DNA from: Acholoe squamosa
Taxonomy: Eukaryota > Annelida > Polychaeta > Phyllodocida > Polynoidae
Reading direction: 5' to 3'
Assembly: GCA_949317995.1 (NCBI GenBank)
Contig: OX439038.1
Coordinates: 66,799,576 to 66,863,575, forward strand
Length of the DNA stretch: 64,000 nucleotides
Of the stretch, positions 4,101-64,000 are shown piece by piece (the first letter of the stretch is position 1; every line of letters begins with the position of its first letter). The notes below the pieces were generated by a model. The model had not been told where the DNA came from and ran no database searches. It worked only from the letters and a program-made list of their open reading frames with translations. Position numbers and translations under genes: made by a program.

Positions 4101-7100
4101 TGACTGTTCATTATTGCAGCACCACAACTGACACTCTAATTCTTTTGCTTTGTTTTTTAAAGTTTATCTGATATTGGAGTTGACAGCCTGATATAGAGAA
4201 GAAATTCATAGAATTGTCATGTTCATAGTGTGTTAATTCACTATTTCACAGTTTGCACAAACCACAAAAAAGGAACCAGTCATAATTTTGATTTCTTTTA
4301 GGTTGTCTCCTTGACGATCTCTCCAATGATTCAGTAACCTTTGCATTGTAATAACTTTTACTTTGTTATAGCATTCAATATGGCTTTTTAATGTTGAGAT
4401 GCCTATTACTCAATGACCAGCAAACAGAGGGCCAGTATGCATTTAAATGTACACTATTATTTCAGCTTAATTGCGGAAGCACATTCAATGATATATAATT
4501 ACTACCCTTTCCTTCCATTAAAATCGATTGTTTCTTCCTAGAAAGCAATTGTTAACCCGAAAGGTGTTATAAGAGCCGGGGTAAAAATGCAACTTTAAGA
4601 CACTACTAACAGTGGGAAAAACTAAGATGCTTTTAGCCCTATGTTAGGTGCGAAAAGCTCAATTTTCCCGTGCTTTTGGGCCGGAGTGGTGCAAATAATT
4701 GATGAATGTTGATGAATTTGCCATCTTTCGATCCGCGCGCGCGTCTCCTTTGTCGTAAAAATGGTGGTTATTAATTTTTTCAAAAATTATTCAGTGTTAT
4801 AATATAGAAATATGATAAAGTATGGCAAGAGGATACCATTTGAATCGATATGTATTATTAAAAAGATAAAAATTTACGTCTTCGCCCTGCCATTAATTCG
4901 CATCCCAAACCCAGGGGTGGTGCATATTGACCCAAATACCCATGGGAATTGGGTCGCGCATGCGCAAACATAACCAAAATCCAAAATGGCGGACAGCGCG
5001 ATGATCGAGTTGTGGGGCCATAACTGCTGGATTATACCAAAAAGGAGGATAATTACAATGTCTCATGCCTTTCTATGGAAAATATGGATCCTTATTCAAG
5101 ACCTGCTGGAATTGTGCAATGATTAACTCGCTAAGAGAGAAGTTATTTGCCAATGAAAAAAATGAGCGATAATGGGTGCTTTCTCCATAGGCTTAACTAT
5201 TGAAAGTGATAACGCTCAAAGAAAACATGAGGTTAGTATCAGAAGGGGCCTAAAAGAAGAGATTAAGTGCCCTTTCGGGTTACTTGCAATGCAAAATGCT
5301 ATCCTATATTTAAATTGTGGAGGCATAACTTGGGGGATGATGCAACATCAGACACCTATCTAATAAGACCATTTTTGGTATTTCTGTTTATTTCTAGGAC
5401 AAGGATCCCACCCTCCCAGGCTGACCTATCTTCTCCTACCCTGGCCATGGCAAGTGTTCTTATGGTAACTTGCTCTTTCAGATGATGGATGGTAGCATGC
5501 AGACTCTGAGCCTGGGCAACTGGATGCAGCTCCCAGATCTACCCTTCAAACAGTGGTTGAAAGCACGGCGAAGGTAACTTTACAGATATTGTCATAATTT
5601 CCTTGTGAATTTATCTGCAGCTTCTTAAATTATCTACACACATATTGGTGCTGCCTGAGCTCTTCGGTTCAGTGGCGGATCCAGGATTTTGAGAAGTGGG
5701 CACACCCTTCATTTCTACTCTCTATGTTTGGCTAAATTTGAGACTTAGAGAAGAGACAGTTAAACTCTTAGCGTGCGCTCCCAAGCCCCCCCCCCCCCCC
5801 ACCCAAGTCTAATTACCGAAATCTCCTGTGTGTAAGACGCACCTCACATATAAGGCGCACCCTGAGTTGAGAATGCCATAAGGCGCACTTTGGGCTTGAT
5901 TTTTTTAGGGTTTATGGTAGTACTGTTCTATAGTAAAATACCCCGCCTATAAGACCCATCCCCTCCTGTGAGAGGTTCTATAAGGCACAATCGACCTCTG
6001 ATTCACGTATAAGACGCGTCTTACATTCAGGAGATAATGGTACTTGACAAAATTTGATGATTTAAAATGACTTGAGTCAGATGCAAGGATATTATCAAAA
6101 AATAGTATCGGCCAAACCAATACTTTTACAAACGAGCTGCTATGATGAGGGCTAGAGTAAGATTTTTGATTACTATTGTTCTTTTTTTCCCGCTAATTTT
6201 TGGTAATTGATATAGCAGAAAAAAGCTCATTTTGTGAAAGACTTGTCTACTTTGTGCAGCAAAGAGAGGTGCTGCCACCTATGGGCTAGGAACCAAAATA
6301 CTCCCTCTGTCATATATATATCAGTGAAAAATATTGAATTAATTTTCTGAACTGTGTTAAACCGTTTAATCAGGAATATGTATGATTCATTCGCCCAGAT
6401 AAATGTAAAAGTTCACATAAGTCTATCTTACCATCACTCCATGCCCTTACCTTACTAACAGTGCACAAGAATCAGCCGAAGGTGAAGGAACGCCAAACAC
6501 CCTCCGCAACCGTGCCAGTATCCAGGATGTGCGGCTTTACTATGAAGACTATGTTAAAGTCAAGAACCTCAGTGAGAACTTCCACTCACAGACCACAGTT
6601 ACATCAGTGCTGCGAGTACTCGATGTGTGTCACTCAATAGACGAGGAGAGTGGAGAGCAGAACCCATGCACACGTGACCATTGTGGCAAGTTCAAGTGGG
6701 AAGTAACAGGGTACGAGACGGTGACACCCGCTGATGGTGATCCAGAATCTATCGAGGATGCTGCAGAACAGCAGTATTTCTGCTACAGAGCACCGAATGT
6801 TGTACTGGCCACAGGAACTTCAGACCTGCCTAATCGATTGGCTGATGTGGGTGGGACCCATCATCCCTATGTACTGCATTCTTATGCAGCACTGGAGACC
6901 CTGCTCAAAGACAGTGATGTGGGGCCTGACTCAGACCCCATCATGGTGATTGGTGCAGGACTCACTGCAGCTGACGCCATCTTGCTGGCGCAGGCTCACA
7001 AGGTGCCAGTAGCACATCTCTTCAGGCGGGATGTCGATGATCCTAACCTCATCTTCAACAAGCTGCCTAAGATGCTCTACCCTGAGTATCATGCTGTGCT

Positions 7101-7506
7101 GCAGATGATGCGCCAACCGCCTGGCACCGCAGAAGGCTACACACCATACCCATCCCACCAAGTGATAGAGTTAATGCAGGACGGTCAGGTTCTGGTTCGG
7201 GGCACTGATGCCGCTGTCGACACCATCATCAGGACATCATATGTAGCGGTGCTCATTGGGTCACGTCCTGACCTCAGTTTTCTACCACACGAGGGCAAGC
7301 ACCTGGGCTTGGTGCCTGGTATGCGTATTGACAGTAAGCACAACCCAGTGGATGTGGACCCTATCACCCACCAGAGTGTTCACGAGTGTGGACTCTATGC
7401 AATGGGACCGCTGGTCGGTGACAACTTTGTGCGCTTTCTCCGCGGTGGTGCCTTGGGCATTGCTGCCGACATCCTGCGGAAACAGGACCAATTAAAATGT
7501 AAATGA
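1052..7506 (+). CDS. OSGIN: OSGIN-family flavoprotein (oxidative-stress-induced growth inhibitor), 4 exons, 5' incomplete
   Basis: Seen: four exons with GT-AG borders and matching phases at 1052-1185, 3234-3425, 5482-5573 and 6462-7506 (TGA), giving about 486 residues. The N-terminal part has the dinucleotide-binding loop GNGPSG followed by ICLSFLLSG. The middle has HVVLGKGNAGGTWQ and TLSLGNWMQLPDLPFKQW, and the last exon has VVLATGTSD and a second Rossmann-type loop, VIGAGLTAADAI. Known: this order and these blocks are typical of animal OSGIN1/OSGIN2, FAD/NAD-dependent monooxygenase-like proteins linked to oxidative stress and growth control. Length is close to the vertebrate proteins. The visible reading starts inside a codon (second and third bases of the first Gly of GNGPSG), so an upstream exon with the start codon is missing; I searched 1-1050 without success. 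Inferred: an active gene, since all junctions keep frame and no stop interrupts it. A diverged copy of its 3' end lies at 17683. Confidence 0.93.
1255..1553. mobile_element. MITE-like element with CAGGGTTCC ends
   Basis: The left end CAGGGTTCCACTGG and right end GGTGGGAACCCTG are inverted repeats, flanked on both sides by ATTAA (5-base target duplication). Inside, AAAAGTCAGTTAA-like words recur several times. It lies in an OSGIN intron and has no coding capacity. The CAGGGTTCC end resembles hAT-type termini, but an 8-base duplication is not seen, so the superfamily is open. Confidence 0.7.
1554..3233. other. OSGIN intron, no further feature seen
   Basis: AT-rich intron sequence. Two open frames (1783-2019, 2577-2792) have no recognisable domain and no splice context. 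Confidence 0.5.
3234..3425 (+). CDS. OSGIN: OSGIN exon, 64 codons
   Basis: The acceptor is TATCCCCAG and the donor is CAG|GTATGT; both borders are phase 0. The peptide starts DLEFLASGLEGRSSNP and ends VVLGKGNAGGTWQ, matching the family blocks DLEYLSEGLEGRS and LGKGAPGGAW known from vertebrate OSGIN. Confidence 0.92.
3757..4038. mobile_element. Harbinger-like MITE, family GGCCACACC, copy 1
   Basis: Inverted ends of about 37 bases start GGCCACACCAAAAAAATAAG and carry the word GTTGGTCTACGGATTT. The 3-base TAA flanks both sides (3754-3756 and 4039-4041). TWA target duplications are characteristic of PIF/Harbinger elements. The interior is homopolymer-rich and non-coding. Two more copies are at 48106 and 54835. 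Confidence 0.8.
4042..5481. other. OSGIN intron with an NRF1/YY1-like site pair
   Basis: Mostly featureless intron. At 4955-4966 is CGCGCATGCGCA (NRF1-type palindrome) and at 4983-4993 AAAATGGCGGA (YY1-type). An ATG at 4986 opens a 47-codon frame beginning MADSAMIELWGHNCW that resembles no family I know. Confidence 0.4.
5482..5573 (+). CDS. OSGIN: OSGIN exon, 30 codons plus 2 bases
   Basis: The acceptor is CTCTTTCAG and the donor is AAG|GTAACT. The peptide begins MMDGSMQTLSLGNWMQL, the strongly conserved OSGIN block (human MEGAMLTLSLGNWMEL). The exon ends with AG, completed by T from the next exon to give Ser. Confidence 0.9.
5814..6042. mobile_element. CCGTAA-type MITE, copy 1 (in OSGIN intron)
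   Basis: Begins TACCGAAATCTCCTGTGTG and ends in its approximate complement CAGGAGATAATGGTA, TA-flanked. Inside are repeated TATAAGRCGCAC-like words in both orientations. It is non-coding and related to copies at 8800, 56575 and 40618. Confidence 0.65.
6462..7506 (+). CDS. OSGIN: OSGIN terminal exon
   Basis: The acceptor is CTTACTAACAG. One base completes Ser, then 347 codons run to TGA. It carries YYEDYVKVKNL, VVLATGTSD (typical before the second nucleotide-binding region), VIGAGLTAADAI and the C-terminal block GDNFVRFLRGGALGIAADIL. Base composition is clearly richer in G+C than the flanking introns. The last 58 or so codons exist again, diverged, at 17683. Confidence 0.93.
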
Positions 7507-12404: not shown

Positions 12405-13420
12405 GATATTACGAGTGATTTTATGTAAATAGTATACAGAAAACAGGACAGTGTGAGTTGGCCCATGTGTGAATAGTATATAGACACTGGGTATTGTGAA
12501 CAGGTCTCTTGTGTGTGAGTAGTATACAGAAGCTAGACATTGTGAGTCTGTGTGAGTAGTATACATAAACAGGACATTGTGAGCGGGTCTATGTATGAGT
12601 TGTATACAGAAACAGGACAATATATATATGTATGTGTGAGTACTATAGTACCCCGCACATAAGGCACACCTCATACACGGGGATGATCTTAGATGTGCAT
12701 ACACGATAGGCCTGAGTTTGGGGTGTGCCTTATATGCAGGGTTTTCTCATGTTTCAATGGCTATGAAAGGGGTATGGGGAGGGGTATGCTGTATACTAGG
12801 TCAGTGATTGCGGTAGGAGTATGGGAGGGAACTGGAGGGGGTGGTGGCATCCTTTGCTTGTTTCTTCGGGCAAGAGGGGGCGACACATTCACAGCTTTTA
12901 GCTCAGTTTTATTCAGTGAACAACTCTGTATTGTGGAGAGCTCCACCTTCTACTGGAGTGTGTTCTAGGTAATGTGGCGGTGTGGTTAGTGTGAACACGG
13001 GATACTACTGTAGTATACAGAAGCAAGACATTGTGAGTGGGTATGTGAGAGTAGTATACAGAAACAGGACATTGTTGGTGGGTCTGTGTGTGAGTAGTAT
13101 ACAGAAACAGGACATTGTTGGTGGGTCTGTGTGTGAGTAGTATACAGAAACAGGACATTGTGGTTTGTATGTGAATAGTAAACAGGAACAGGACATTGTG
13201 AGTAGTATACAAAAGTATACACAAGTGCACATGTGTGAGTTGTATACAGAAACAGGACACCTTGAATGAGTGTGTGTGAGTAATTTACAGAAACAGGACA
13301 GTGTGAGCGGGACTGTGTATGAGAGTAGTGCACAGAAATAGTACAATGTGAGGGAGTCTGTGTGGTATACAGAAATAGGACATTTTGAGTATGCAAGTAA
13401 TAAACAGAAATAGAATAAGG
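12405..13420. repeat. 43-base minisatellite array 1 (interrupted)
   Basis: Units read AGTATACAGAAACAGGACAT followed by TGTGAGTGGGTCTGTGTGTG. About six diverged units lie at 12405-12630 and about ten at 13008-13420. They are separated by a block that includes a degenerate CCGTAA-type palindrome (12646-12745, ACCCCGCACATAAGGCACACC) and G-rich text. The unit length is one more than a multiple of three and the - strand has no stops in any frame, so long open frames there are artefacts. Confidence 0.85.
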
Positions 13421-21353: not shown

Positions 21354-22660
21354 AGTATACAGAAACCTGACATTTTGTGCAAGAGTAGTATACAGAATCT
21401 GGACAATGTAAGTAGGTCTCTGTGCGTGACTAGTATAAGTCCCTGTTTGACCACCAGGGGGCATTGGAGGGGCAAAATTACTCTAAAATCATCAAAAAAA
21501 TACATTAAGCTAATTTTTAATGCAGGATTCAATGGTCTCATTTAAAATGCTCCATTTTGGGTAGAAATGGCCCATATTTGGATAGTAGAATGAACGTTTT
21601 TCATGAGAAATCAACCTAAATGCCTGTGGATAATCAAAATGATGTCTCATTTTAAAGATCTTGAGATGAACTTTGATAATGAATTTCCCTGCAGAGGGGT
21701 GGTTTTGCTTGCCTGGTCACATATACCGTTAGAAGCAGGACATTGTGAGCAGGTCTTTGTGTGAGTAGTATAGCAAGGAATTGGATTATATAATGCCCGA
21801 AAGTAGGTGCTGTCCTTGGGTTGAAATGAACATGTCAATCACAGTGACCAGCCAAAGTGGTGCCAAAGTCTCGTCCCTGCTGCTTGTTCCTGAAATGTAC
21901 AGACACTTATACAATATCAAGCTGGCACCTTTCTCACGTGAAAATGCGAGATGGGTAGATCATGTCTGCCTGCATACATCCTTCCGATTTGTTGCTATAC
22001 AGAACTTGGAAATTGTGATCTGTGTGAATACAATGTAGTATACAGAAACAGGACATTGTGAGTGGGTCTGTGTGTGAGTAGTATACAGAAAAAGGACATT
22101 GTGGGTGGGCAAGGGTGTCAATTTTAAACAGAAACAGGGCATTGTGAGTGGGTCTGTGTGTGAGTAGTATACAGAAACAGGCCATTATGAGTGGGTCTGT
22201 GTGTGAGTATAGAATACAGAAACAGGACATCGTGTGTGGGTCTGTGTGTGAGAAGTATACAGAAATAGGACATTGTGGATGGGTCTGTGTGTGAGTAGTA
22301 TACAGAAACGGGACATTGTGAGGTGAGTGGGTCTGTGTGTGAGTAGTATACAGAAACAGGACATTGTGAGTGAGTCTGTGTGAGTAGTATACAGAAACAG
22401 GACATTGTGAGGTGAGTGGGTCTGTGTGTGAGTAGTATACAGAAAAAGGACATTGCAAGTGGGTCCGTGTGTGAGTAGTATACAGAAACAGGACATTGCG
22501 AGTGGGTCTGTGTGTAAGTAGTATACAGAAACAGGACATTGCGAGTGGGTCTGTGTGAGTAGTATACAGAAACAGGACATTGCGAGTGGGTCTGTGTGTG
22601 TAAGAAATTTCCAGAAATAAGACATTGTGAGCGGGTCTGTGTGTGAGAAGAACACAGATA
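21352..22660. repeat. 43-base minisatellite array 2
   Basis: Same unit as the array at 12405. A few scattered units occur at 21352-21435 and 21735-21770, then about 14 near-tandem units at 22023-22660. Some units carry a 5-base extension (GAGGT). The unique stretch 21436-22022 contains an open frame (21781-22038) of no known family. The LTR element at 22669 is inserted into this array, whose pattern resumes briefly after 25095. Confidence 0.85.
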
Positions 22661-29831: not shown

Positions 29832-30170
29832 TAAGTATTGAAGGGTCAGCATGATGTGTCAATGCTGCCCTAAGAAGTAAACACTATTGAAGGGTCAGCA
29901 TGATGTGCCAATGCCGCCCTAAGAAGTAAACACTATTGAAGGGTCAGCATGATGTGCCAATGCTGTCCTAAGAAGTAAACACTATTGAAGGGTCAGCACG
30001 ATGTGCCAATGCTGCCCTAAGAAGTAAACACTATTGAAGGGTCAGCATGATGTGCCAATGCTGTCCTAAGAAGTAAACACTATTGAAGGGTCAGCATGAT
30101 GTGCCAATGCTGCCCTAAGAAGTAAACACTATTGAAGGGTATGCATGATGTGACAATGCTGCCCTAAGAA
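29832..30170. repeat. 49-base minisatellite, left block (about 7 units)
   Basis: Units read ACTATTGAAGGGTCAGCATG, ATGTGCCAATGCTGCCCTAA, GAAGTAAAC with few changes; the period is exactly 49. The same unit resumes at 30457. Confidence 0.92.
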
Positions 30171-30456
30171 TTGGCTGGATACCGACCTGTATATTGATGA
30201 CATGTACACAGGCAAACCATGCCTAAGAATTTGCCTGTCAATCATCCCCTGTTTTCACATTTACTCACAAGGGGGCACCCTTTTACCCCAAAGGTACACA
30301 TGCCTCTCCTATACAGATATATAGCCTGTGATTGGAGATCTAAAACTGCCATCTACTGGAGTTCAAGTGAGGCTCTCCCCAGGATCTGGGAAAACGCCAT
30401 CAGGCATGGCCTGCGGGTATATGCCCACAATACCTGCAGGGCACCAGCGTACCCTA
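30171..30456. other. Unique insert splitting the 49-base minisatellite
   Basis: About 286 bases unlike the repeat, bordered on both sides by CCTAAGAA. A frame at 30219-30464 (starting MPKNLPVNHPLFSHLL) runs through it but shows no known domain. Confidence 0.5.
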
Positions 30457-30700
30457 AGAAGTAAACACTATTGAAGGGTCAGCATGATGTGCCAATGCTG
30501 CCTTAAGAAGTAAACACTATTGAAGGGTCAGCATGATGTGCCAATGCTGTCCTAAGAAGTAAACACTATTGAAGGGTCAGCATGATGTGTCAATGCTGCC
30601 CTAAGAAGTAAACACTATTGAAGGGTCAGCATGATGTGCCAATGCTGTCCTAAGAAGTAAACACTACTGAAGGGTCAGTATGATGTGCCAATGCTGCTGG
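30457..30700. repeat. 49-base minisatellite, right block (about 5 units)
   Basis: Same 49-base unit as 29832-30170, ending in a partial unit CCAATGCTGC at about 30695. Confidence 0.92.
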
Positions 30701-33744: not shown

Positions 33745-33760
33745 TTAACTGAAGTAATAC
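33745..33760 (-). CDS. PTPN1: Probable terminal mini-exon of the PTPN1-like gene
   Basis: On the - strand a pyrimidine-rich tract ending GTCTATTTCAG precedes GTATTACTTCAGTTAA. Joined in phase to the donor at 35240 it completes Arg and adds Tyr-Tyr-Phe-Ser-stop, giving a tail VFIYRYYFS. Human PTP1B also continues YRFLFNSNT after its hydrophobic segment. The intron would be 1480 bases. Sixteen coding bases are too few to be certain. Confidence 0.5.
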
Positions 33761-36700
33761 CTGAAATAGACAACAAACCTATCACCTGAAATCCTGTTCC
33801 TTCAATAGGTACAGAGACGTGGGACAGAATAAGGGGGTGGGGGGAGGGGAGAGAGGATTTCGGCCATTTTTTACATCTTTCAGCTTGACCTTCTCGTTTA
33901 ACTTTAATTGGGGTTGGTAAAGAGTGGCCGCCGCTTCCAATACCCATGAGGTATGAAAGTGTTTCCAGAAATTAGCAATTTATGTCATGGCTGATACGAA
34001 CGTCACTATAGAACAGTACTGGACATGCTGTATTCAATGGGGGGAGATGGAATACAATGTGTCCGTATTCAATGGCTGACGATCACGTTACTCATGTATG
34101 ATTACATGTAATCAAGTTGATTTGTCTATTAAAAGACAAAACAAGGTAGCGTTTGCTTTAACTTTATCTTAGTTATTTGTCTCCAATTCAAAAAGTAACG
34201 CGTCCAGTTCCATAGTCTTGACTTATTAGTTACAAATAGTACTAGCATTTAAGGACTACTGGTAATTGCAGAGAAATGGTGAGTTAGTACGGACATACAT
34301 TGCACGATTGCTGACAAATGTTAAGTAAATTACTTTCATAAATTGAGTAAATCGTCCCAACATAAGTCGCAGCCACCCACCCATCCACCCACCCACCCAC
34401 CAACCAATCTTCTTAAAGATTGGTGGGTGGGCTTCTCTATGTACTGACCTAGATTCACCTCCAATGCAAGACCAACATGGCCTCTATGTTATTCCCCATA
34501 AGGAAAAAAAACAGTACCTTTGCATGCATATCACTCATTTCACTGACTAGTGTAATAACAAATGAACATAGTATGACCTGCTACTATTCTTCTAGCACAC
34601 TCTGATCACAAAATTACCTACAGGTGACATAGTGATGTGTACAAAACACACTATGCACCAAAATAATCCCAATCACCACCCAGTACCCACTTTTTAAATC
34701 AAAATTTAAAAAAAAAAAAAAATAATAGAATCATCCTAGGAACACCAAACTGGACTATGTTATTTCAAACTTCATAGACGTCCATGGAAAGAATTAGTAA
34801 CTTTAAACTATGATAAACCACTTTTTCCTAAAATACTTAAAATTAATAACCCAACTGGTAACAACGGTCCACTTTACTGAAGCTTAGAAAAGTTAGACAT
34901 GTTTGCAAAGGAAACTGGACGCGTTAATAACCCCGTAGGCCATGACATAAATACAAATGTCCACTTCCGTGAAAAATTTTGCATCGTATTCACCTTGTTG
35001 GGGCTGCCCCCATTCAACGAAGCCGTATGCAGGCAGCCCCACTGAGGTGAATACGATGCAAAATTATTCACTGGTCATGGACATTTGCTTATGTGTCTTT
35101 TTTTAAATGACCATTCCTTTCCACTCAATTCCACTTTTGCGATTTCTCATGCTTTATTTGTTGTCCGTTTTAGTGTAATTTTAAGGTATCATCATGGTTG
35201 GCAGTCAAGCTGCCATAATTTCTGAAAGGGTTTGACTTACCTGTATATAAAAACAAGCCCCACGACACCTGTGATCCCCAAACCAATGAGGACAGGGGTA
35301 ATGGATGATTTTGTGCTGCGCCACTTCTCACTCTCGCCTTGTCTTTGCTTCATGCGCTCTATTTGTTGTTGTGTAGCCTTCCTGCGTTCTTCCCTATTAC
35401 GCCTCCTTAGTTCCACACCACTACAAGAGAGAGTGTGTTTGATTTGAAACAAGACTATAAGACAATGCAGTACGAGAAAAAACAAGGTTTTGGAGTAAGG
35501 GTCAATTTTTCTACTAACATATGTTCATGAGTAATGATGCTACCATGACATGTGAATCTGTATCCACAGGCGACTGACAAGGGAGTTTTCTTGGGTTTTC
35601 TGGACTGTAAAATTGATGAACACCAGTAATGATTTTCAAAGCTACATAAACCCTCATAACTACACTACTTACTCTTTTCTTTGATTGTCTGAAACTTCTG
35701 GACGCTCCTTCTCAGCTGACTTCTCATTTAGTCCTCTCATCCATTCCTTCATCTCCTCCAGTTCATCCATACCCGTGGGCCGCCCAACTCCATTGTCGCT
35801 ACATGGCAAAACGTCCGGCAGGTCGTCATCACCGGGTGGAGGTAAGGTAGGTGGTGGCGGTGGTTTTCTCCTGGGTGGCAGTGGGGGCGGTATGTCAGCA
35901 TCACTGTCGTCTTGGTCTATCGTCATCGGCCCTGTGTGATTCGATGACGTTAATGGCGTCACCAGAGGTTCCAAGTCATTTAGCTAGTGGTTAGGCAAAA
36001 AGACAAAACAATTATTATTACATTCAGTAAAAATTATTAAACACTGACACACATAAGGCATACACTATTAAAACACATTGTACTATTTGATATAGATCTT
36101 CATGGTTGTCTATGACCAGTCTTTCACTTATCACAGATCAATCTACTCTAAAACTGTATTAATTTTAATCTTATGGAATATGCTGACCTGCATTTTCATC
36201 AGAAGCTTTTTGTCATTTCAATGCCATTCTCAAGTCTAAATTTGCATGGTTTCCTGTATACATACATCATTGCCATCTGAGAAGCCGGAGTCTGGGGAGG
36301 CAGAAAGGATGCGCTTGCCTCCTTCGATAATGGCCTCATACGAGAACTTGAGCTGTTCTGCCGTCTGTATGAGCCCCATCCGGTAATGCCTCATCTCCGT
36401 CAGTATTTGCTGCACATTAATATTCTCCATTGTCCCTTGCTTTTCAATCTGTCAATCACAGAGTTTTGATAAATCGTCAGTTCACACATGCCTAATGTGA
36501 AGCAATATTGATTCCATTACACTTACTTATCCAGGACATATGCTATCACTCAATATTCAGCAAGGGTCTTCTGTGATATTACATTTTGTGATCGGAAGTA
36601 TTTGGTCTTAGTATAGGACTGCTCACTCATTGATGAATGCTACAATTTGCTGCTTTCTCACAAAATTACACAATGTAGTTACTTAAGGTCTTCATAAGCA

Positions 36701-39700
36701 ATATCTATACAATTTTAGAAGTCTTAGCAAAGCCTTTACTTGGCAGTAAAACAACAAGGAGGATTGAAGTTCTTACCAATACAAGACATGTGTCCACGAG
36801 ACAGAAGGTTCCGGAACGCCCGATACCAGCGCTGCAATGAATGACAGGTGGTCCGACATCTCGACTCAGCGCCCCAGACTGACGGACGGCATGGAGGTAG
36901 TTCAAAAAAGCTGATAATGTGGGTACCTTGAAGTCAGGCCAGGTTGTGTAGTGGAACTGTAGCACTTCTTTGGACTCATTTGTCTGTGTACAAGATAGAT
37001 TGACAAACTATGGGTAGATACTGTTGAAATGATAATGTGTTAGCGATCAAGATAAACTAGTTGAGGAAATTGACCTCTTCCAGTATTAACTTTGATATTA
37101 AGGGAGTTCTTTTTAGTTATTTTGAAGATCATAATTGAACGATTTTTGTGAAGGAATATAGGCATTAAATACTTGATGCTTATAAAATCACTTTTTTCTA
37201 TCGGTACTAAAGCCCTCTTCCTACCTTGAGGTCTTGTAGCCGGAATGTCCGAACAGTGAAGTATTTGTAATTTGTTTCTTCGATAAATGTAACGCTGAGA
37301 CCGACATCTTCAAACTCCATCTCTTCTACGCCATATTCATCATTTCCCATTGGGAAATATTGGTGGCATTTTGTCTGTGGCAGATAAAATAAGATGATTG
37401 TTATTGCTTTATTCTTGAATCTCTTTTTTTTTAAGATGTAAATTTGAATTTGATACCTATTCTATTTAGAGTACGGTAGATATAATGGCATTTTAGTACA
37501 ATCACTATTCAAGTGAAGGGGCTATGTTATTGCCATGAATATATAATGCACTTGAAAAACCATCATGGACTTCAGAAGGAATAATCGATGTAAATTGTGT
37601 GTAATATATCGGGTAAACTTTCTTTTCAAGTCACCAACGCAATGACTATCTCTCCTCAGAATGTGAGTGTACACTAATTTTAACTGGGGAAGTAACCTTA
37701 ATGCGAGGTACAGCAGTGTTAAAAGATGCCACACGAAATTCCTTACATTTTATGACTGGAGTCGAAAGGATTTTCGAGTACCCCCGATATATATCAATGT
37801 GAGAGTAGACAGCATTCCTTTTGTATTTTGCTACGTTTCCATTAGACTAAAATATTCTTATCACTAACATGCAAGCTAGAACTCTTCGGATGTTAAAAGG
37901 TAAACCAAGAAATATCTATTTAGTATTCTCAGGATGATACCTTTGCTAACAGAGAGACAACAGAGGATATCCACTCATTCTTGTAAGCATGCCCTCTTTT
38001 AGTTACCTATCACAGATTTCGATATGTCGTTTTTCTCATAATATGTGCCAACGGTCCATAGAGGCATGGATGTACTGCTCATTTTGGGATATTTCATTTG
38101 TATGGACGATTATTTTACTGTTTACGCATACATTCATATACAACATCTTTCATTTTTTTAACCCCATTCCAATGAGATATTTATATTCATACTGTACAAT
38201 TACATATCATTACATGTGTATTACCGTCCCTTTTGATTTCTGCGCTACGTTAGTCATCACCGTCTTGTGGGCGCTATAAGCCTTGACCTACCAATCCGTT
38301 TTCGACGAGGTCACACAACATGAGCACTGCCTTGCTACCTTGTTCCCACAGGAGGAGCCATAAATGTCCACACGTTTCCTCCAAGGGCCCCTGGGCGTAC
38401 AATTTAGTTGATATAGAAAATTAGCTACCTGGGCATTTGATTTGATTAAATTTGCCTTTACATTTCTATACCTGGACAAAGGCCAATATTGTAATACTAT
38501 GCGGAGGCCTTCAGGTTTCTCCCACTTCACTATGTCATCCCTGCTGGATTATGACTTGTCGCTTGTTTGGGGAAGCTGATTTGGTGGGGGGAGGGGGGGG
38601 GGTGCGGGGCTGCAGGATGGGAATCGCAGTATCTGGGTGGACTGATTGTCGGTGTTCTGAGTGAAACTCATTTTGCACACACATCAAACTATTGGCTCTC
38701 TGGGATGGCTCTTATTGACTGTCTTTTTGTGTGATCTTGTTTAAAGTGTCAAAGGAAAGGTTTCCTAATGATATGTTAGTGCACATATAAGCAATGTTCT
38801 TTTGGTTAACCTTTTGGTTCCAATACATTAGTGGAACATATCAATGCTCATCCATTTCGAGTATTTAGATTGACTGATGTGCGCAACTGAAAATCACTGT
38901 TTTCACTTAACGTGCTCAGAACACAAAAAGCGTAGCATTCAAGAAACTTGCTTCTTAACAAACATGCTTGTATTTTGGAAATTTATTTAAGTTAAAAAAA
39001 AAATCAGGTTTAATTGATAGAGCTTACTAAAACCACAACATGCATTATTATCATCATGCAAAACTTCTGTTTATCCAAACCAAATTGTTTGTTTATGGCA
39101 AGTGACCTGAAGATATGCTAAATTAATTCCAAAACAAAAACGGAAAGAGAAACAAATAACTGAAAACATCTGGGGGCGGGGTGACATTCAATGTTATTAT
39201 TTGTGCCATGATACAAAGAGTTACGTTCATTAATTCTACAGGGGAGAAGTATACAAACCCACAGGTATACTGGTAGTGGTTGAACCAAAATCAGTGTATT
39301 TGTTGCCTAAAGATCTAGGATAACTATGTTCGTTGGGTTTTTCACTAAAAAAAGTACCGAGGATCTGACTTGAGAAGGGTAGTTACTAACGGTTCATAGA
39401 CCACTGAAAGAGCTCAAAATTGGCCCCCCCAGGTCTAAAAATTAACCCCTTTTCCATTTTCTCCAATACTGAACAAACAGTTCTATGGTCAGACATAGTC
39501 CATCTAGATAGGGTTAGATAATCTGAAACCCACTTCCTTCTGCCTACATGGACCATGGTACAAATAAAAACGTCCTATGTCACCCCCTGTGTAACATCGA
39601 GAGAAAACCAGAAGAGTAAAGCAGAAAGCTCAACAAAACTGCAAGCAGGAGTGAAATCATCTTATGAACTCTCAAAAGACAGAACGTAGCTGAAAGACAG

Positions 39701-42700
39701 AATTAAAAAGCCAAGTGATCAAACAGTGTGACAAAATCCAACTATTTATTTTATGTGAGGTGTTATTTTCTATAACACTGGAAAAGGGGAGAGACTGGCA
39801 TGAAATTGTTTGTTGCAGTCAAGTCTTTCTTTGTCATTGCACTAGTCTTTACTACGGTATTTACAGATCTTTCATTGTAATCAGAAGTGAGAACTCTTTA
39901 AAGTTTTTTTTCTCAAAAGTGTAATTTTGGTCATGTGAGGAAAAATAAAATTTCATAGAAATTTGTTCCAGAAGTTCCTTTTCTCTATACTTGATACTGT
40001 ATGTCTCAAGGAGTGTTGTTTCTGATTATGTGGGGTTTGGGGTATATGAGTTTTCTAACATAGTTAAAATCTGTACAAAAATACAATGACACTTATGCCA
40101 TGGGTATTAAGGCCTACGCTTAACGCAGCGACGGGGTGGAGGCGGAGGGTATAAGTCCTGAGTAGGGAATGCAGGATGGTTCACACGACCCATAGGATGT
40201 AGCACTCACACGATCATGCACCAGCCTCGTTCCAACTCGCAAAAAAAAGACAACACATGCTCCACCTAGCGTGAAAAGTAGTAACCACAGCGCCCTTAGC
40301 CTCTCGCTAAGAGAGGGGTTGTCGGGTATCTGCCACCTACCCGTCCACGCTCGACAGTCCGGTTCAACATGAGCACCGCCTTGCTGTTCTGTTCCCAGAC
40401 CATCAGCCAGAAATGTCCACAAGTATTCGGCAAAGGGCCCTGGCGATATAAATAGTGTTATTTTTTAGCACAGTTTGTATTCGCTTGCTGAACTTCAGTT
40501 GTTATAGAGAGTTTTCTCGGCGATCTGCATCAAGTATCATCTTGCTGGATCAAAATACATATCTATTAGGTCAATTGCAGATGGTTAACTTACATATGCA
40601 AAGTACAATGTACTATGTACCGTAGTACCTCGCGTATAAGGCATGACTTACAGGTGAAGGTAGATCCCTTGTGTGCCTAGTGAACCTTCACAAAGTCAGG
40701 GTGTACCTGATAGGTGTAGGGGATGGCGAAAACGTTTTTAGGGAAACCGGGAGTTGAACCCGGGACCTCTCAGCCTTCAGACAATTGCTCTACCACTGAG
40801 CTACTTCCCCATACAACGTTCTCTACCTTCCACCTACACCTGGATCTGTGTGATACCGATAGGGGACATGTGACTACCCGGCCACCCGGGCACGGGGACT
40901 CACATAGTCACGTTCCCCTACACAGCCCCCAACCAGCTTCGACCACCGAATTAACCAGCACTGAGTCAAACACAGGGTGTGGTGGCCTGTGAGCACCCCA
41001 GCGCTAGCAGGTTGAAGCGCTTGCTGTATCACACCAACCCAGTAACCGCGTTCCGTAGCCCCCCCTCATGCGGGTCAGAACTACTCGGTTTCCCTACCAT
41101 TGTAGGGGACGGCGAAAACGTTTTTAGGGAAACCGGGAGTTGAACCCGGGACCTCTCAGCCTTCAGACGATTGCTCTACCACTGAGCTACTTCCCCGTAC
41201 AACATTCTCTACCTTCCACCTACACCTGGATCTGTGTGATACCCATAGGGAACATGTGACTACCTGGTGACCAGCCCCTGCGGGTCGGCCACCCGGGCAC
41301 GGGGACTCGCATAGTCACATTCCCCTACATAGGCAAGGTATATTTATATATGATTTTTATCAAACTGCTAAAAATGGTGCATCTCCTTCATTTCTGGGTC
41401 GGCCATATACGTGAAGTTTGCCTTATATGTGCGGCATTGAGCAGGGGTAGACACTAACTTTTCTGTCATGGGCCACCCAAGCCCGTAGCTAGAATCCTAC
41501 GGGCCCACACCAATAGCTGTGGGTCCAGAATGAATATCACTTTTGATTTTTTCCTATTCCTCATTGAATTATATCAAGACGTTGATAAATTGCCCTCACA
41601 ACTGTAGCCAATGCTCCTAGAGCTTTTCCTCAATAATTCCTGTGGGCCACCCGGGCACATAGGAAGGTAAAAAAAAATTTAAAAAAAAAACAAAAAAAAA
41701 ACACAACTGTGGCCCAGCACCCAAAATTACAGGCCATTGGCCCCCGGGCCAACGTTAGTGTCTACCCCTGATTAAGGTAATGTCCAATGTTTTTATCTCC
41801 ATGTACTGCTGTGATATAATTCATGGATATGAATATTCCGTTCTGGATGAAAAGAAAAGGCCAGAAAGAAAAGATACTGTTTTGAAGTATTTTGCTTATT
41901 TCTAAGCCTTCAGAAACAGCGCCTTACAATAGTCGGACCGCTCCAGAGATAGTGGCGCCTGCTATCTAAGGGGAACAGAGAGTAATCAATATCAAATGAA
42001 GTTCTTTCGGCCCCTCCATTTTTTTCTGACAACAGGTGGATGGACTTATCTGAAGACTGAATTAGGCCGTTAATCATACATTGAAAATTTTGAAAATTAA
42101 ATCATACAGTGAATGCACATAGTGTCAGGGGAAGTCACTCAAATAAAACACTTCATATAACGGTACGTTACACACTGATCTGTAGAAAACACATTAATAC
42201 TTATCATATACATTTTGTATTAAAAAGAAAATTCTGATATAGAAGTCGAAGAGGCGCCGTCGAAGAAATGTTAGGATACAAAATTACTTTTTTTCTGCTT
42301 ACAATACAATATCAATCATGATTTAAAATGACATGTATCCCAGATGATATTCAATTAATGTAAATTGAGTGTGGAATATGAGCGGGTTTATGACTGTACC
42401 TGTGTGAGGATGTATGATCGGTCTGCCTCAGGTGCCTCAACAATATTTGCGTTGATGTAGTCGATGCCTTCCCGATCCAATGGGATGCGGCTGTGGTCAT
42501 CTTGAACATCATAACGGTACAGTATTATCAATTAAGGACCTTAACCGTACAACTAAAACAATGCAGGGGTATTGAAAATCCAACCTATGGTGAGGGTATT
42601 TTACTATGAACAGAGCTGTGGAGTATGTTTTTATACACCTATGTCAAAACACTTTATGGGAATTGGTAAAGGTAGAGTAACTAAATGACGAGTGATTCAA

Positions 42701-42878
42701 CGCAAACACGCTTGGGGTGGTGCCTTCATAAAATACATCTGAAATTTATCACTTGTTACTTATATACTTCATGATACTTACATGGACTGACATCTCTGTA
42801 TCGGTTGCGGCTGCGAAATTCAGGGCGCCGGGCATCTTGTGATGTGTATTCGAACAAGGAGGACTTTGTCTTTATTGT
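33745..42878 (-). CDS. PTPN1: PTP1B/TC-PTP-like non-receptor protein tyrosine phosphatase, 5' incomplete
   Basis: Seen, on the - strand: exons 42782-42878, 42400-42500, 40341-40439 (or 38292-38390), 37225-37374, 36777-36983, 36266-36448, 35673-35983, 35241-35420 and probably 33745-33760, all with GT-AG borders and compatible phases. Motifs in order: [14 protein letters not shown] (phosphotyrosine loop), [27 protein letters not shown] (general-acid Asp), [12 protein letters not shown] (catalytic Cys and Arg), GLIQTAEQL (Q-loop). A linker with [16 protein letters not shown] and a hydrophobic tail [20 protein letters not shown] follow. Known: this layout is that of PTPN1/PTPN2, which dephosphorylate receptor and JAK-type kinases; the tail anchors PTP1B to the ER and the proline motif binds SH3 domains. 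Visible length is about 445 residues, near human PTP1B (435). The N-terminal exon (about 20 residues in human) was not found. Two alternative versions of one catalytic exon are present. Confidence 0.93.
34370..34440. repeat. (CCCA)n microsatellite with a small hairpin
   Basis: CCCACCCACCCATCCACCCA runs into ACCAATCTTCTTAAAGATTGGTGGG, an inverted repeat of the same motif. Confidence 0.7.
34946..35098. repeat. Inverted repeat in the last phosphatase intron
   Basis: The arms share CAAATGTCC and TTTTGCATCGTATTCACCT (left) with AGGTGAATACGATGCAAAA and GGACATTTG (right); the loop has GGGGCTGCC / GGCAGCCCC as a second inner stem. Arms are about 60 bases. No target duplication was confirmed; probably a MITE-like element. 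Confidence 0.75.
35153..35158 (-). promoter_or_regulatory. Candidate polyadenylation signal (AATAAA)
   Basis: AATAAA on the - strand lies about 80 bases past the in-frame TAA that follows the membrane-anchor exon if the donor at 35240 is not used. It suggests a short, unspliced 3' end as an alternative to the mini-exon at 33760. AATAAA occurs often by chance in AT-rich DNA. Confidence 0.35.
35241..35420 (-). CDS. PTPN1: PTPN1-like exon, C-terminal membrane anchor
   Basis: The acceptor is TCTCTTGTAG. It reads a basic, coiled-coil-like stretch ([20 protein letters not shown]) followed by the hydrophobic segment [20 protein letters not shown], matching the ER-anchor tail of PTP1B. After Tyr the sequence is CAG|GTAAGT, a strong donor. 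If unspliced, Arg-stop follows at 35237-35242, with AATAAA at 35153-35158 (- strand) about 80 bases on. Confidence 0.85.
35673..35983 (-). CDS. PTPN1: PTPN1-like exon, acidic and proline-rich linker
   Basis: The acceptor is CCACTAG and the donor is GA|GTAAGT. It reads [10 protein letters not shown], an acidic stretch [10 protein letters not shown], then [18 protein letters not shown], and a charged helix-like end ([14 protein letters not shown]). Human PTP1B has a comparable IPPPPRPPKR motif that binds SH3 domains. It lies outside the catalytic domain and is poorly conserved otherwise. Confidence 0.85.
36266..36448 (-). CDS. PTPN1: PTPN1-like exon with Q-loop
   Basis: The acceptor is GATTGACAG and the donor is GAT|GTATGT, phase 0, 61 codons. 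It reads [20 protein letters not shown], then [17 protein letters not shown], equal in layout to human [20 protein letters not shown]. The Gln of the Q-loop, needed for phosphocysteine hydrolysis, is present. Confidence 0.93.
36777..36983 (-). CDS. PTPN1: PTPN1-like exon with WPD loop and catalytic P-loop
   Basis: The acceptor is TTGTACACAG and the donor is TTG|GTAAGA, phase 0, 69 codons. It contains [14 protein letters not shown] (general acid Asp) and [20 protein letters not shown] (nucleophile Cys and phosphate-binding Arg). All catalytic residues are present, so the enzyme should be active. Confidence 0.96.
37225..37374 (-). CDS. PTPN1: PTPN1-like exon, 50 codons
   Basis: The acceptor is TCTGCCACAG and the donor is AAG|GTAGGA, phase 0. 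It reads [19 protein letters not shown] through [12 protein letters not shown], matching human LKCAQYWPQKEEKEM and YTVRQLELENL. The initial TK supplies the residue equivalent to Lys120 next to the active site. Confidence 0.93.
38292..38390 (-). CDS. PTPN1: PTPN1-like alternative exon B (99 bases), duplicate of exon A
   Basis: The acceptor is TGTACGCCCAG and the donor is TTG|GTAGGT; phase 0 on both sides and exactly the length of exon A. The 33 codons read [17 protein letters not shown], then [16 protein letters not shown]; 22 of 33 residues equal exon A. It has no stop, both splice sites are intact, and the conserved Glu of the E-loop is kept while the residues around it change (NRTVERGR to CDLVENGL). 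Inferred: a mutually exclusive or cassette exon. It could also be a recently disabled duplicate, but nothing in the sequence shows that. Confidence 0.85.
40341..40439 (-). CDS. PTPN1: PTPN1-like alternative exon A (99 bases)
   Basis: The acceptor is TATATCGCCAG and the donor is CGG|GTAGGT; phase 0 on both sides. The 33 codons read [17 protein letters not shown], then [16 protein letters not shown], aligning without gaps to human PTP1B residues 86-118. It is nearer to the human sequence than exon B, notably keeping Asn-Arg before the conserved Glu115. Followed by TKC of the next exon, it restores Lys120-Cys121. Confidence 0.93.
40741..40811 (-). ncRNA. tRNA-like segment (SINE head), module 1
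   Basis: On the - strand GGGGAAGTAGCTCAGTGG opens an acceptor stem and A box, and GGTTCAACTCC is a good B box; acceptor, D and T stems pair. The anticodon stem is poor, with two mismatches around a loop CTGAAGG (GAA would read Phe). It is therefore a tRNA-derived Pol III promoter rather than a working tRNA. Confidence 0.7.
41128..41197 (-). ncRNA. tRNA-like segment (SINE head), module 2
   Basis: Nearly identical to the segment at 40741, with the same A and B boxes. One change (AATCGTCTG against AATTGTCTG) improves the anticodon stem slightly, but mismatches remain. Confidence 0.7.
42400..42500 (-). CDS. PTPN1: PTPN1-like exon, DYINAN motif
   Basis: The acceptor is ATGTTCAAG and the donor is CAG|GTACAG. 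It reads (Y)[19 protein letters not shown] and ends SYILTQ in phase 0, corresponding to human DHSRIKLHQEDNDYINAS and SYILTQ. Confidence 0.92.
42782..42878 (-). CDS. PTPN1: PTPN1-like exon, phosphotyrosine-recognition loop
   Basis: The acceptor is TTTTTCTACAG and the donor is GTAAGT. It reads [15 protein letters not shown] followed by [11 protein letters not shown], matching human [13 protein letters not shown] with the substrate-binding Tyr. It ends one base into a Tyr codon. The first visible codon is Thr and no start Met is in frame, so an upstream exon is expected. Confidence 0.9.
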
Positions 42879-62106: not shown

Positions 62107-63985
62107 CTAATTAACCATTCTTGTGGTTATTTATTCGTCATAAGCAAGCAACCCTGACCTGAGCAGCTGCGGTGACCTGATCCACAATAGTCAAGATGCC
62201 ACGATTACAGTGCCCGGTTGATGGATGCCCCTGGGAGTCACAGGATATGGATGCCCCCTTTGCAGCTGCCCTAACAGTTGCGCTCCAGATCCATGACCGG
62301 TCAGCACATCCAGTGGCTCAAGTCCAACCTCCTGCAGGACCTGCAGCCACACCCAAGCTCAAACTGGACCCTCCCAGTATGTCTGCTGGGTGTGACCCTG
62401 ACCAGTGGTCTGCATTCAAACGACAGTGGGACATGTATAAAGTGGGTATGACCATCAATGACATTATAATCACAGAGATGAAAGAGGGTGTTCGCCTCTT
62501 TGACCCCTCCTGCAGCACATGCCTGGCCACAGACTGATCGGTTGATGGCATTGGATTTTTTTTTGATGCAGAAGTACTGCCAATGCCTCACCCGCACCCC
62601 TGCATGCTGCCATGATTGCTGGAAGTTGTGTCTTGTCGGCAGTCGGTTCACGCACCCTGCCGAGAGCAGGTATGCCCCTATTGAGGGGGAGGCTTTGGCA
62701 GTAGCATATGCACTCCATCAGACACGCTATTATGTCCTGGGCTGCGAGGATCTAATTGGTGACACACACCACAAGCCACTACTACAAATACTCAATGACA
62801 GATCCCTCACATACATCAGTAATCAGCGGCTTCTGAACCTAAAGGAGAAAACCTTGTGGTTATTTATTCGTCATAAGCAAGCAACCCTGACCTGAGCAGC
62901 TGCGGTGACCTGATCCGCAATAGTCAAGATGCCACGATTACAGTGCCCGGTTGATAGATGCCCCTGGGAGTCACAGGATATGGATGCCCCCTTTGCAGCT
63001 GCCCTAACAGTTGCGCTCCAGATCCATGACCGGTCAGCACATCCAGTGGCTCAAGTCCAACCTCCTGCAGGACCTGCAGCCACACCCAAGCTCAAACTGG
63101 ACCCTCCCAGTATGTCTGCTGGGTGTGACCCTGACCAGTGGTCTGCATTCAAACGACAGTGGGACATGTATAAAGTGGGTATGACCATCAATGACATTAT
63201 AATCACAGAGATGAAAGAGGGTGTTCGCCTCTTTGACCCCTCCTGCAGCACATGCCTGGCCACAGACTGATCGGTTGATGGCATTGGATTTTTTTTTGAT
63301 GCAGAAGTACTGCCAATGCCTCACCCGCACCCCTGCATGCTGCCATGATTGCTGGAAGTTGTGTCTTGTCGGCAGTCGGTTCACGCACCCTGCCGAGAGC
63401 AGGTATGCCCCTATTGAGGGGGAGGCTTTGGCAGTAGCATATGCACTCCATCAGACACGCTATTATGTTCTGGGCTGCGAGGATCTAATTAGTGACACAC
63501 ACCACAAGCCACTACTACAAATACTCAATGACAGATCCCTCACATACATCAGTAATCAGCGGCTTCTGAACCTAAAGGAGAAAACCCTGGCCTACAGGTT
63601 TACGGTAGTTCATGTGCCTGGCAAAAAGAATCGAGGGCCCGATGCTGCCTCCAGACATCCCGTCAGCCAGCCTGATCGCCTCTACCTGCAGATAAGCCAC
63701 ACGAATCTGATGTCATTGTCCACATCTCCCGCCATGAGACTACTCAGCCTGTGCTCTGAGGGCACATACACATTGCCCACTGATGCCACATATGCCCTAA
63801 AGGCCGTCCACCCTTTGGTCACATGGGACATGGTATGTCAGGCCACAGCATCTGACCCAACTTTTGTGGAACTTATCAGCCGACTAGAAAACAGGTTTTC
63901 CTCAGACTCACGTGACCTTCCATATAACTTATGCCCATTCCACCGCTATGTTGACCACATGTGTGTGGTAGATAGTGTTTGGTTT
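62107..63985 (+). mobile_element. Ty3/gypsy-type retroelement fragment with internal tandem duplication
   Basis: It holds a gag N-terminal segment (MPRLQCPVDGCPWESQDMD, with DQWSAFKRQWDMYKVG further on) and an RNase H-region segment (RYAPIEGEALAVAYALHQTR, then HKPLLQILNDR). In the second copy FTVVHVPGKKNRGPDAASRH and further pol-like sequence follow. Known: these blocks are typical of marine-animal Ty3/gypsy polyproteins. Most of pol is absent and no LTRs are seen in the window, so the element is broken, with several breaks. A 733-base unit (62121-62853) is repeated at 62854-63586 with only about four differences. Confidence 0.85.
62121..63586 (+). repeat. 733-base tandem duplication inside the gypsy-type fragment
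   Basis: TTGTGGTTATTTATTCGTCA begins at 62121 and again at 62854, and the sequence between repeats almost exactly to about 63586. At about 99.5% identity it is either very recent or an assembly duplication. Confidence 0.9.
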
Positions 63986-64000
63986 GGTTGATTTTACGTC

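Follow-up and report, generated by a model that had tools for sequence, protein, structure and literature searches.

Can one tyrosine phosphatase gene build two enzymes by choosing between alternative copies of a catalytic exon? This question is raised by a locus in the annelid Acholoe squamosa, where the minus strand of a 64-kb window (the whole stretch of contig OX439038.1 analysed here; 40.4% G+C) carries the gene of a tyrosine phosphatase of the PTP1B type, with two versions, A and B, of one exon. Based on the evidence below, we consider it likely that A and B stem from an old tandem exon duplication in a PTPN1/PTPN2-type gene and are used as mutually exclusive exons. Splicing could thus probably build two enzyme forms with different versions of a loop next to the active site.

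Ten coding exons of the gene were placed (Table 1). Joined with exon A, they yield 447 residues, stop-free to the terminal TAA, in a model that starts after the missing first exon; this exon, which should carry the initiator Met, was not found (three pattern matches in one search, none of nine passing the donor filter in another). The P-loop signature HCxxGxxR, the WPD loop and the Q-loop (QTAEQ) are all present. Among the best 60 of 252 matches to solved structures, 58 are named PTPN1/PTP1B and two only protein-tyrosine-phosphatase, for each isoform alike. In the A form, 148 of the 255 aligned catalytic-domain positions are identical to human PTP1B; within the exon pair, A matches it at 24 and B at 17 of 33 residues. 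Human PTP1B has a proline-rich tail and a C-terminal hydrophobic membrane anchor, and the Acholoe gene, going by sequence and hydropathy, likewise encodes a proline-rich tail and a C-terminal hydrophobic segment, a candidate membrane anchor. Judged by these features, it is an animal PTPN1/PTPN2-type phosphatase, the two being taken jointly. It has the catalytic-domain identity, the proline-rich tail and the hydrophobic C-terminal segment in common with vertebrate PTPN1 (PTP1B) and PTPN2 (TCPTP), whereas exon B is an extra of the Acholoe gene. The WPD loop reads WPDFKVP, compared to WPDFGVP in PTP1B, Lys replacing Gly183.

Table 1. Coding exons of the phosphatase gene and the intron between exons A and B, in window positions.
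Feature	Positions	Strand	Remarks
Upstream coding exon (...RNRYRDVSP, pTyr-loop region)	42782..42878	-	window search, alignment to PTP1B
Coding exon (YDHSRI...RSYILTQ)	42400..42500	-	predicted phase-0 splice to A or B; aligned to PTP1B
Exon A	40341..40439	-	99 nt, phase 0-0; PTP1B residues 86-118; conservative version
A-B intron	38391..40340	-	1950 nt; three TGCATG motifs
Exon B	38292..38390	-	99 nt, phase 0-0; PTP1B residues 86-118; derived version
Coding exon after A/B (TKCHQYFP...)	37225..37374	-	carries E-loop Lys120; aligned to PTP1B
Coding exon for the WPD loop (TTWPDFKVP) and the P-loop	36777..36983	-	aligned to PTP1B
Coding exon with Q-loop (LIQTAEQL)	36266..36448	-	aligned to PTP1B
Tail exon, acidic and proline-rich	35673..35983	-	no Pfam match at E 0.001
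Tail exon with C-terminal hydrophobic segment	35241..35420	-	19 residues with a mean hydropathy of 2.34; no Pfam match
Last coding exon	33745..33760	-	acceptor TGTCTATTTCAG; in-frame stop TAA

A and B lie in tandem and in the same orientation within one gene, and are homologous and of the same phase. The first-pass annotation had described them as two interchangeable exons of equal length and phase with the same donor, GTAGGT, and good acceptors, and its coordinates and all of these features were borne out on the minus strand, the acceptors reading ATCGCCAG at A and TACGCCCAG at B. Its count of 22 equal residues out of 33 also holds; at the nucleotide level, 66 of 99 bases are identical (23, 26 and 17 of 33 at codon positions 1, 2 and 3, respectively). 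Likewise, Glu115 is kept in both exons, while Asn111-Arg112 become Cys-Asp in B, as had been reported. That the differences cluster at the end agrees with the bare counts, five of the last eight residues differing as against six of the first 25. Searched against the 2925 stop-to-stop segments of at least 15 residues that the window contains, the two exons match each other at E ~1e-13, and nothing else falls below E 0.2. Of the six catalytic-domain exons searched in this way (the tail exons and the first exon were outside the search), only the A/B exon has a second copy, no duplicate of the other five being found in the window.

From their sequence alone, both exons have an open frame and plausible splice sites. 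By an approximate donor matrix, not trained on this species, the donor of exon B outscores 96.7% of the 3651 GT sites on the minus strand; it scores 2.6, compared to 4.0 for that of A, and two further donors of this gene rank lower. The acceptors are modest, with 11 pyrimidines in 20 positions at both A and B, the other five acceptors of the gene having between 10 and 16.

The two exons seem to have been apart for long, and under constraint. Pairwise comparison (NG86) gave a dN of 0.31 and a dS of 1.36, the latter imprecise because it rests on 33 codons. A codon bootstrap placed dN/dS between 0.09 and 0.54 and dS between 0.58 and 3.06; 318 of 2000 replicates failed or were saturated, and dN/dS was at least 1 in a single one of the 1682 usable replicates. 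The dN/dS of exon B had been suggested as a check, and in its pairwise form, A against B, it is well below 1; this value is a mean across the two copies and across time and is not that of B's own branch, along which the timing of constraint cannot be told from it. The flanking introns, compared in register and without gaps over 100 nt, are only 28% (upstream) and 21% (downstream) identical, and a repeat finder extends the A/B match by only four bases beyond the exon start. The case for an interchangeable coding exon pair in a PTP1B-like gene, as first proposed, is thus well supported by anatomy and constraint; its alternative use we infer.

In the comparison with human PTP1B, all three sequences agree at 17 of the 33 sites; A alone agrees with human at seven, B alone at none, A and B agree against human at five, and four sites differ throughout. 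Since the human residue is retained seven times in A only and never in B only, A is the more conservative of the two copies and B is derived. The five sites at which A and B agree against human PTP1B would be compatible with a duplication inside this lineage; with 33 sites and one outgroup they fit this origin but cannot prove it. G86, P87, L88, T91, W96, W100, E101, M109, E115 and G117 are common to A, B and human PTP1B. Searches of viral and prokaryotic collections, in a mode suited to close relatives, returned one and six pattern matches, respectively, and no confirmed relative of the locus.

The greater divergence of B and its lower-scoring donor would also be expected if B were unused or decaying, a formerly functional duplicate that is now passed over in splicing and has stayed open by chance. 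We regard this as unlikely, since B keeps an open frame, both splice sites and ten residues in common with A and human PTP1B at a dS above 1. In simulations of neutral drift starting from exon A, in which an exon counted as kept if it retained an open frame, both splice dinucleotides and 22 of 33 identical residues, 0.99% survived at 0.3 changes per site, 0.025% at 0.45 and none of 20000 at 0.6. The branch leading to B measures about 0.6-0.7 if dS is halved evenly, and about 0.3 at the lower bootstrap bound. An unused B is thereby made very unlikely, unless its loss is recent or the branch lies near the low bound of dS; as a test against chance preservation, the simulation is strong but not absolute. 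Because the introns lack an in-register match, the exons still match, and neutral drift to a comparable divergence hardly ever preserves such an exon, B appears to be an old, coding copy.

How the two copies are used is best approached through the domain that they complete. With A alone, the joined exons match Pfam Y_phosphatase (PF00102) in one stretch at 253.8 bits, and with B alone, again in one stretch, at 239.9 bits. With neither exon, the match drops to 178.5 bits in two stretches; with both, it also breaks into two stretches, whose summed 274.1 bits are the highest value because the segment is counted twice. As both exons are multiples of three, the frame would allow double inclusion or double skipping, and mRNAs with both or neither are possible. 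It could be argued that B serves as a regulatory insert, both exons being in or neither, which would yield a misfolded, non-catalytic phosphatase and lower activity, and the split domain match with both exons would fit such a role. Amino-acid constraint on A and B is unexpected for a merely disruptive insert, however, and this alternative appears somewhat less probable still than that of a decaying copy. Mutually exclusive use is the best explanation, because the domain match is whole with a single copy, whichever it is, splits when the two are combined, and loses 75 bits when neither is included. Each mature mRNA would then carry either A or B, one only, and two phosphatases would result that have the catalytic Cys, the WPD loop, the Q-loop and the tail with its hydrophobic end in common; within residues 86-118 they would be told apart by 11 exchanges, of which five fall in the E-loop.

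That two alleles of one exon were placed in tandem by an assembly or haplotype artefact is already contradicted and highly improbable, even though 99% identical 300-base copies occur elsewhere in the window (62120-63152), since A and B are unlike at 33 of 99 bases and the introns beside them lack an in-register match, far beyond allelic difference, and the search found no second copy of the other five catalytic-domain exons.

For mutually exclusive splicing of A and B, the question arises how the choice might be made. An intron of 1950 nt is too long for simple steric exclusion of neighbouring exons. RNA pairing between the three introns, as a possible splicing switch, did not exceed that of shuffled sequences, the best ungapped pair being reached in 15% of 60 shuffles. 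Near exon A, there is a 30-nt inverted repeat (40448-40477 with 39720-39749), which is outside the top four intron pairings. The motif TGCATG, presumably of the RBFOX type, occurs three times in the A-B intron, compared to 0.52 expected (Poisson P ~0.016, uncorrected, for one of ten motifs counted), a weak hint at RBFOX-type control of the A/B choice.

What the choice might mean for the enzyme depends on the E-loop. How the motions of this loop and of the WPD loop set the rates of tyrosine phosphatases is an active question, pursued through mutants and simulation in PMC8031367 and PMC8297725. As described in the former, Glu115 of the PTP1B E-loop pairs with the P-loop Arg (printed there as R211), and the E-loop residues R112, E115, K116 and K120 are among those that stabilise or destabilise the transition state. 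According to PMC8297725, whose text alternates between R112 and R122 and has E112 in one place, the open WPD loop is bonded at the backbone amide of T177 by the side chain of R112, which rotates away as the loop closes; PMC11275736 lists R112 as one of the flexible residues near the active site. Exon B keeps Glu115 but carries Asp in position 112 and Asn in position 116, and is followed by the shared exon that supplies Lys120. The proposal that B alters the E-loop is reasonable in the light of this literature. Replacement of Arg112 by Asp and loss of the basic residue 116 to Asn would shift the open/closed balance of the WPD loop, and this in turn would retune rate or substrate preference, with Glu115 and activity retained. 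Isoform B would be expected to remain active, its WPD-loop balance being shifted.

The cysteine at 111, which the first-pass annotation took to be new and to offer redox tuning, is a different matter. Matching columns by eye, without gaps and with VM and KC as anchors, we find Cys at the PTP1B Asn111 column in PTPN12 and PTPN22 as well, which rules out the exchange as a novelty of B. Cys111 is thus compatible with a natural phosphatase and not new to the family, and the redox idea is weakened. The likeness ends at the next residue, which is Arg in PTPN12, Met in PTPN22 and Asp in exon B. PTPN12 and PTPN22 are PEST-type phosphatases, and we know of no splicing choice at this segment in either. 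A receptor-like E-loop was considered and rejected: the B stretch ranks LAR and PTPRS above PTP1B, but so does that of A, used as a control, and B is therefore not specially receptor-like. Tentatively, it is quite conceivable that splicing switches the E-loop, A keeping the Arg112 latch on the open WPD loop and B presenting Asp112, Cys111 and Asn116. One gene would in that case provide two enzymes of equal chemistry whose loop dynamics, rates or redox response differ, under the control of tissue or stage.

Exchanges of this kind are well known in other genes. PMC9741552 gives 236 annotated tandem duplicated exon substitutions, or mutually exclusive exons, in human, most of them ancient and three quarters tissue-specific. 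With these the A/B pair has in common adjoining homologous exons, equal phase and a kept key functional residue; the swapped regions described there, however, mostly avoid ligand sites, whereas the A/B swap lies beside the active site and the use of B is predicted. Another parallel, described in PMC8659336, is offered by exons 6a and 6e of C. elegans coq-2, a mutually exclusive pair that changes substrate use via two residues and constitutes a proven swap at an active site. Both pairs swap part of an enzyme core, but coq-2 encodes a polyprenyltransferase and its case is proven by genetics, while A/B concerns a phosphatase known from sequence. The words phosphatase and PTPN are absent from the main text of PMC9741552, and PTPN from the text extracts of PMC5703972. 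Among the titles and abstract openings listed from open-access PMC text, none reports a mutually exclusive or duplicated exon pair in tyrosine phosphatases. The earlier statement that vertebrate PTPN1/PTPN2 have no such pair is to this extent not contradicted; as open-access PMC text only was covered, this absence is weak evidence. A/B is real and probably functional as an alternative exon pair, the type of event being well known already and the case itself probably new. If it is functional, a member of a drug-target phosphatase family has been diversified by splicing instead of gene duplication, and its natural isoform pair, with 11 differences that include residue 112 and of which five lie in the E-loop, would amount to an experiment that evolution has already set up.

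The window holds several further features. In the intron before exon A there are two tRNA-like units on the minus strand (41196-41125 and 40810-40739), one scored as tRNA-Phe (GAA) and the other with an unclear anticodon; both sit in a 172-base repeat, the two repeats being 95% alike and 386 bases apart, and look like tRNA-derived SINEs. On the 3' side of the last coding exon of the phosphatase, a 49-base tandem repeat forms two arrays (29836-30170 and 30452-30697), and a minisatellite of about 37-43 bases (GTAGTATACAGAAACAGGACATTG...) forms arrays at 12430-13318 and 22035-22658, some 9 kb apart. The two 300-base copies within 62120-63152 are 733 bases apart and adjoin a retroelement RNase H-like frame (63215-63988, PF17917). 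On the plus strand, an open frame of 361 residues (6421-7503) has weak pyridine-nucleotide oxidoreductase matches below the Pfam cut-offs and presumably resembles OSGIN.
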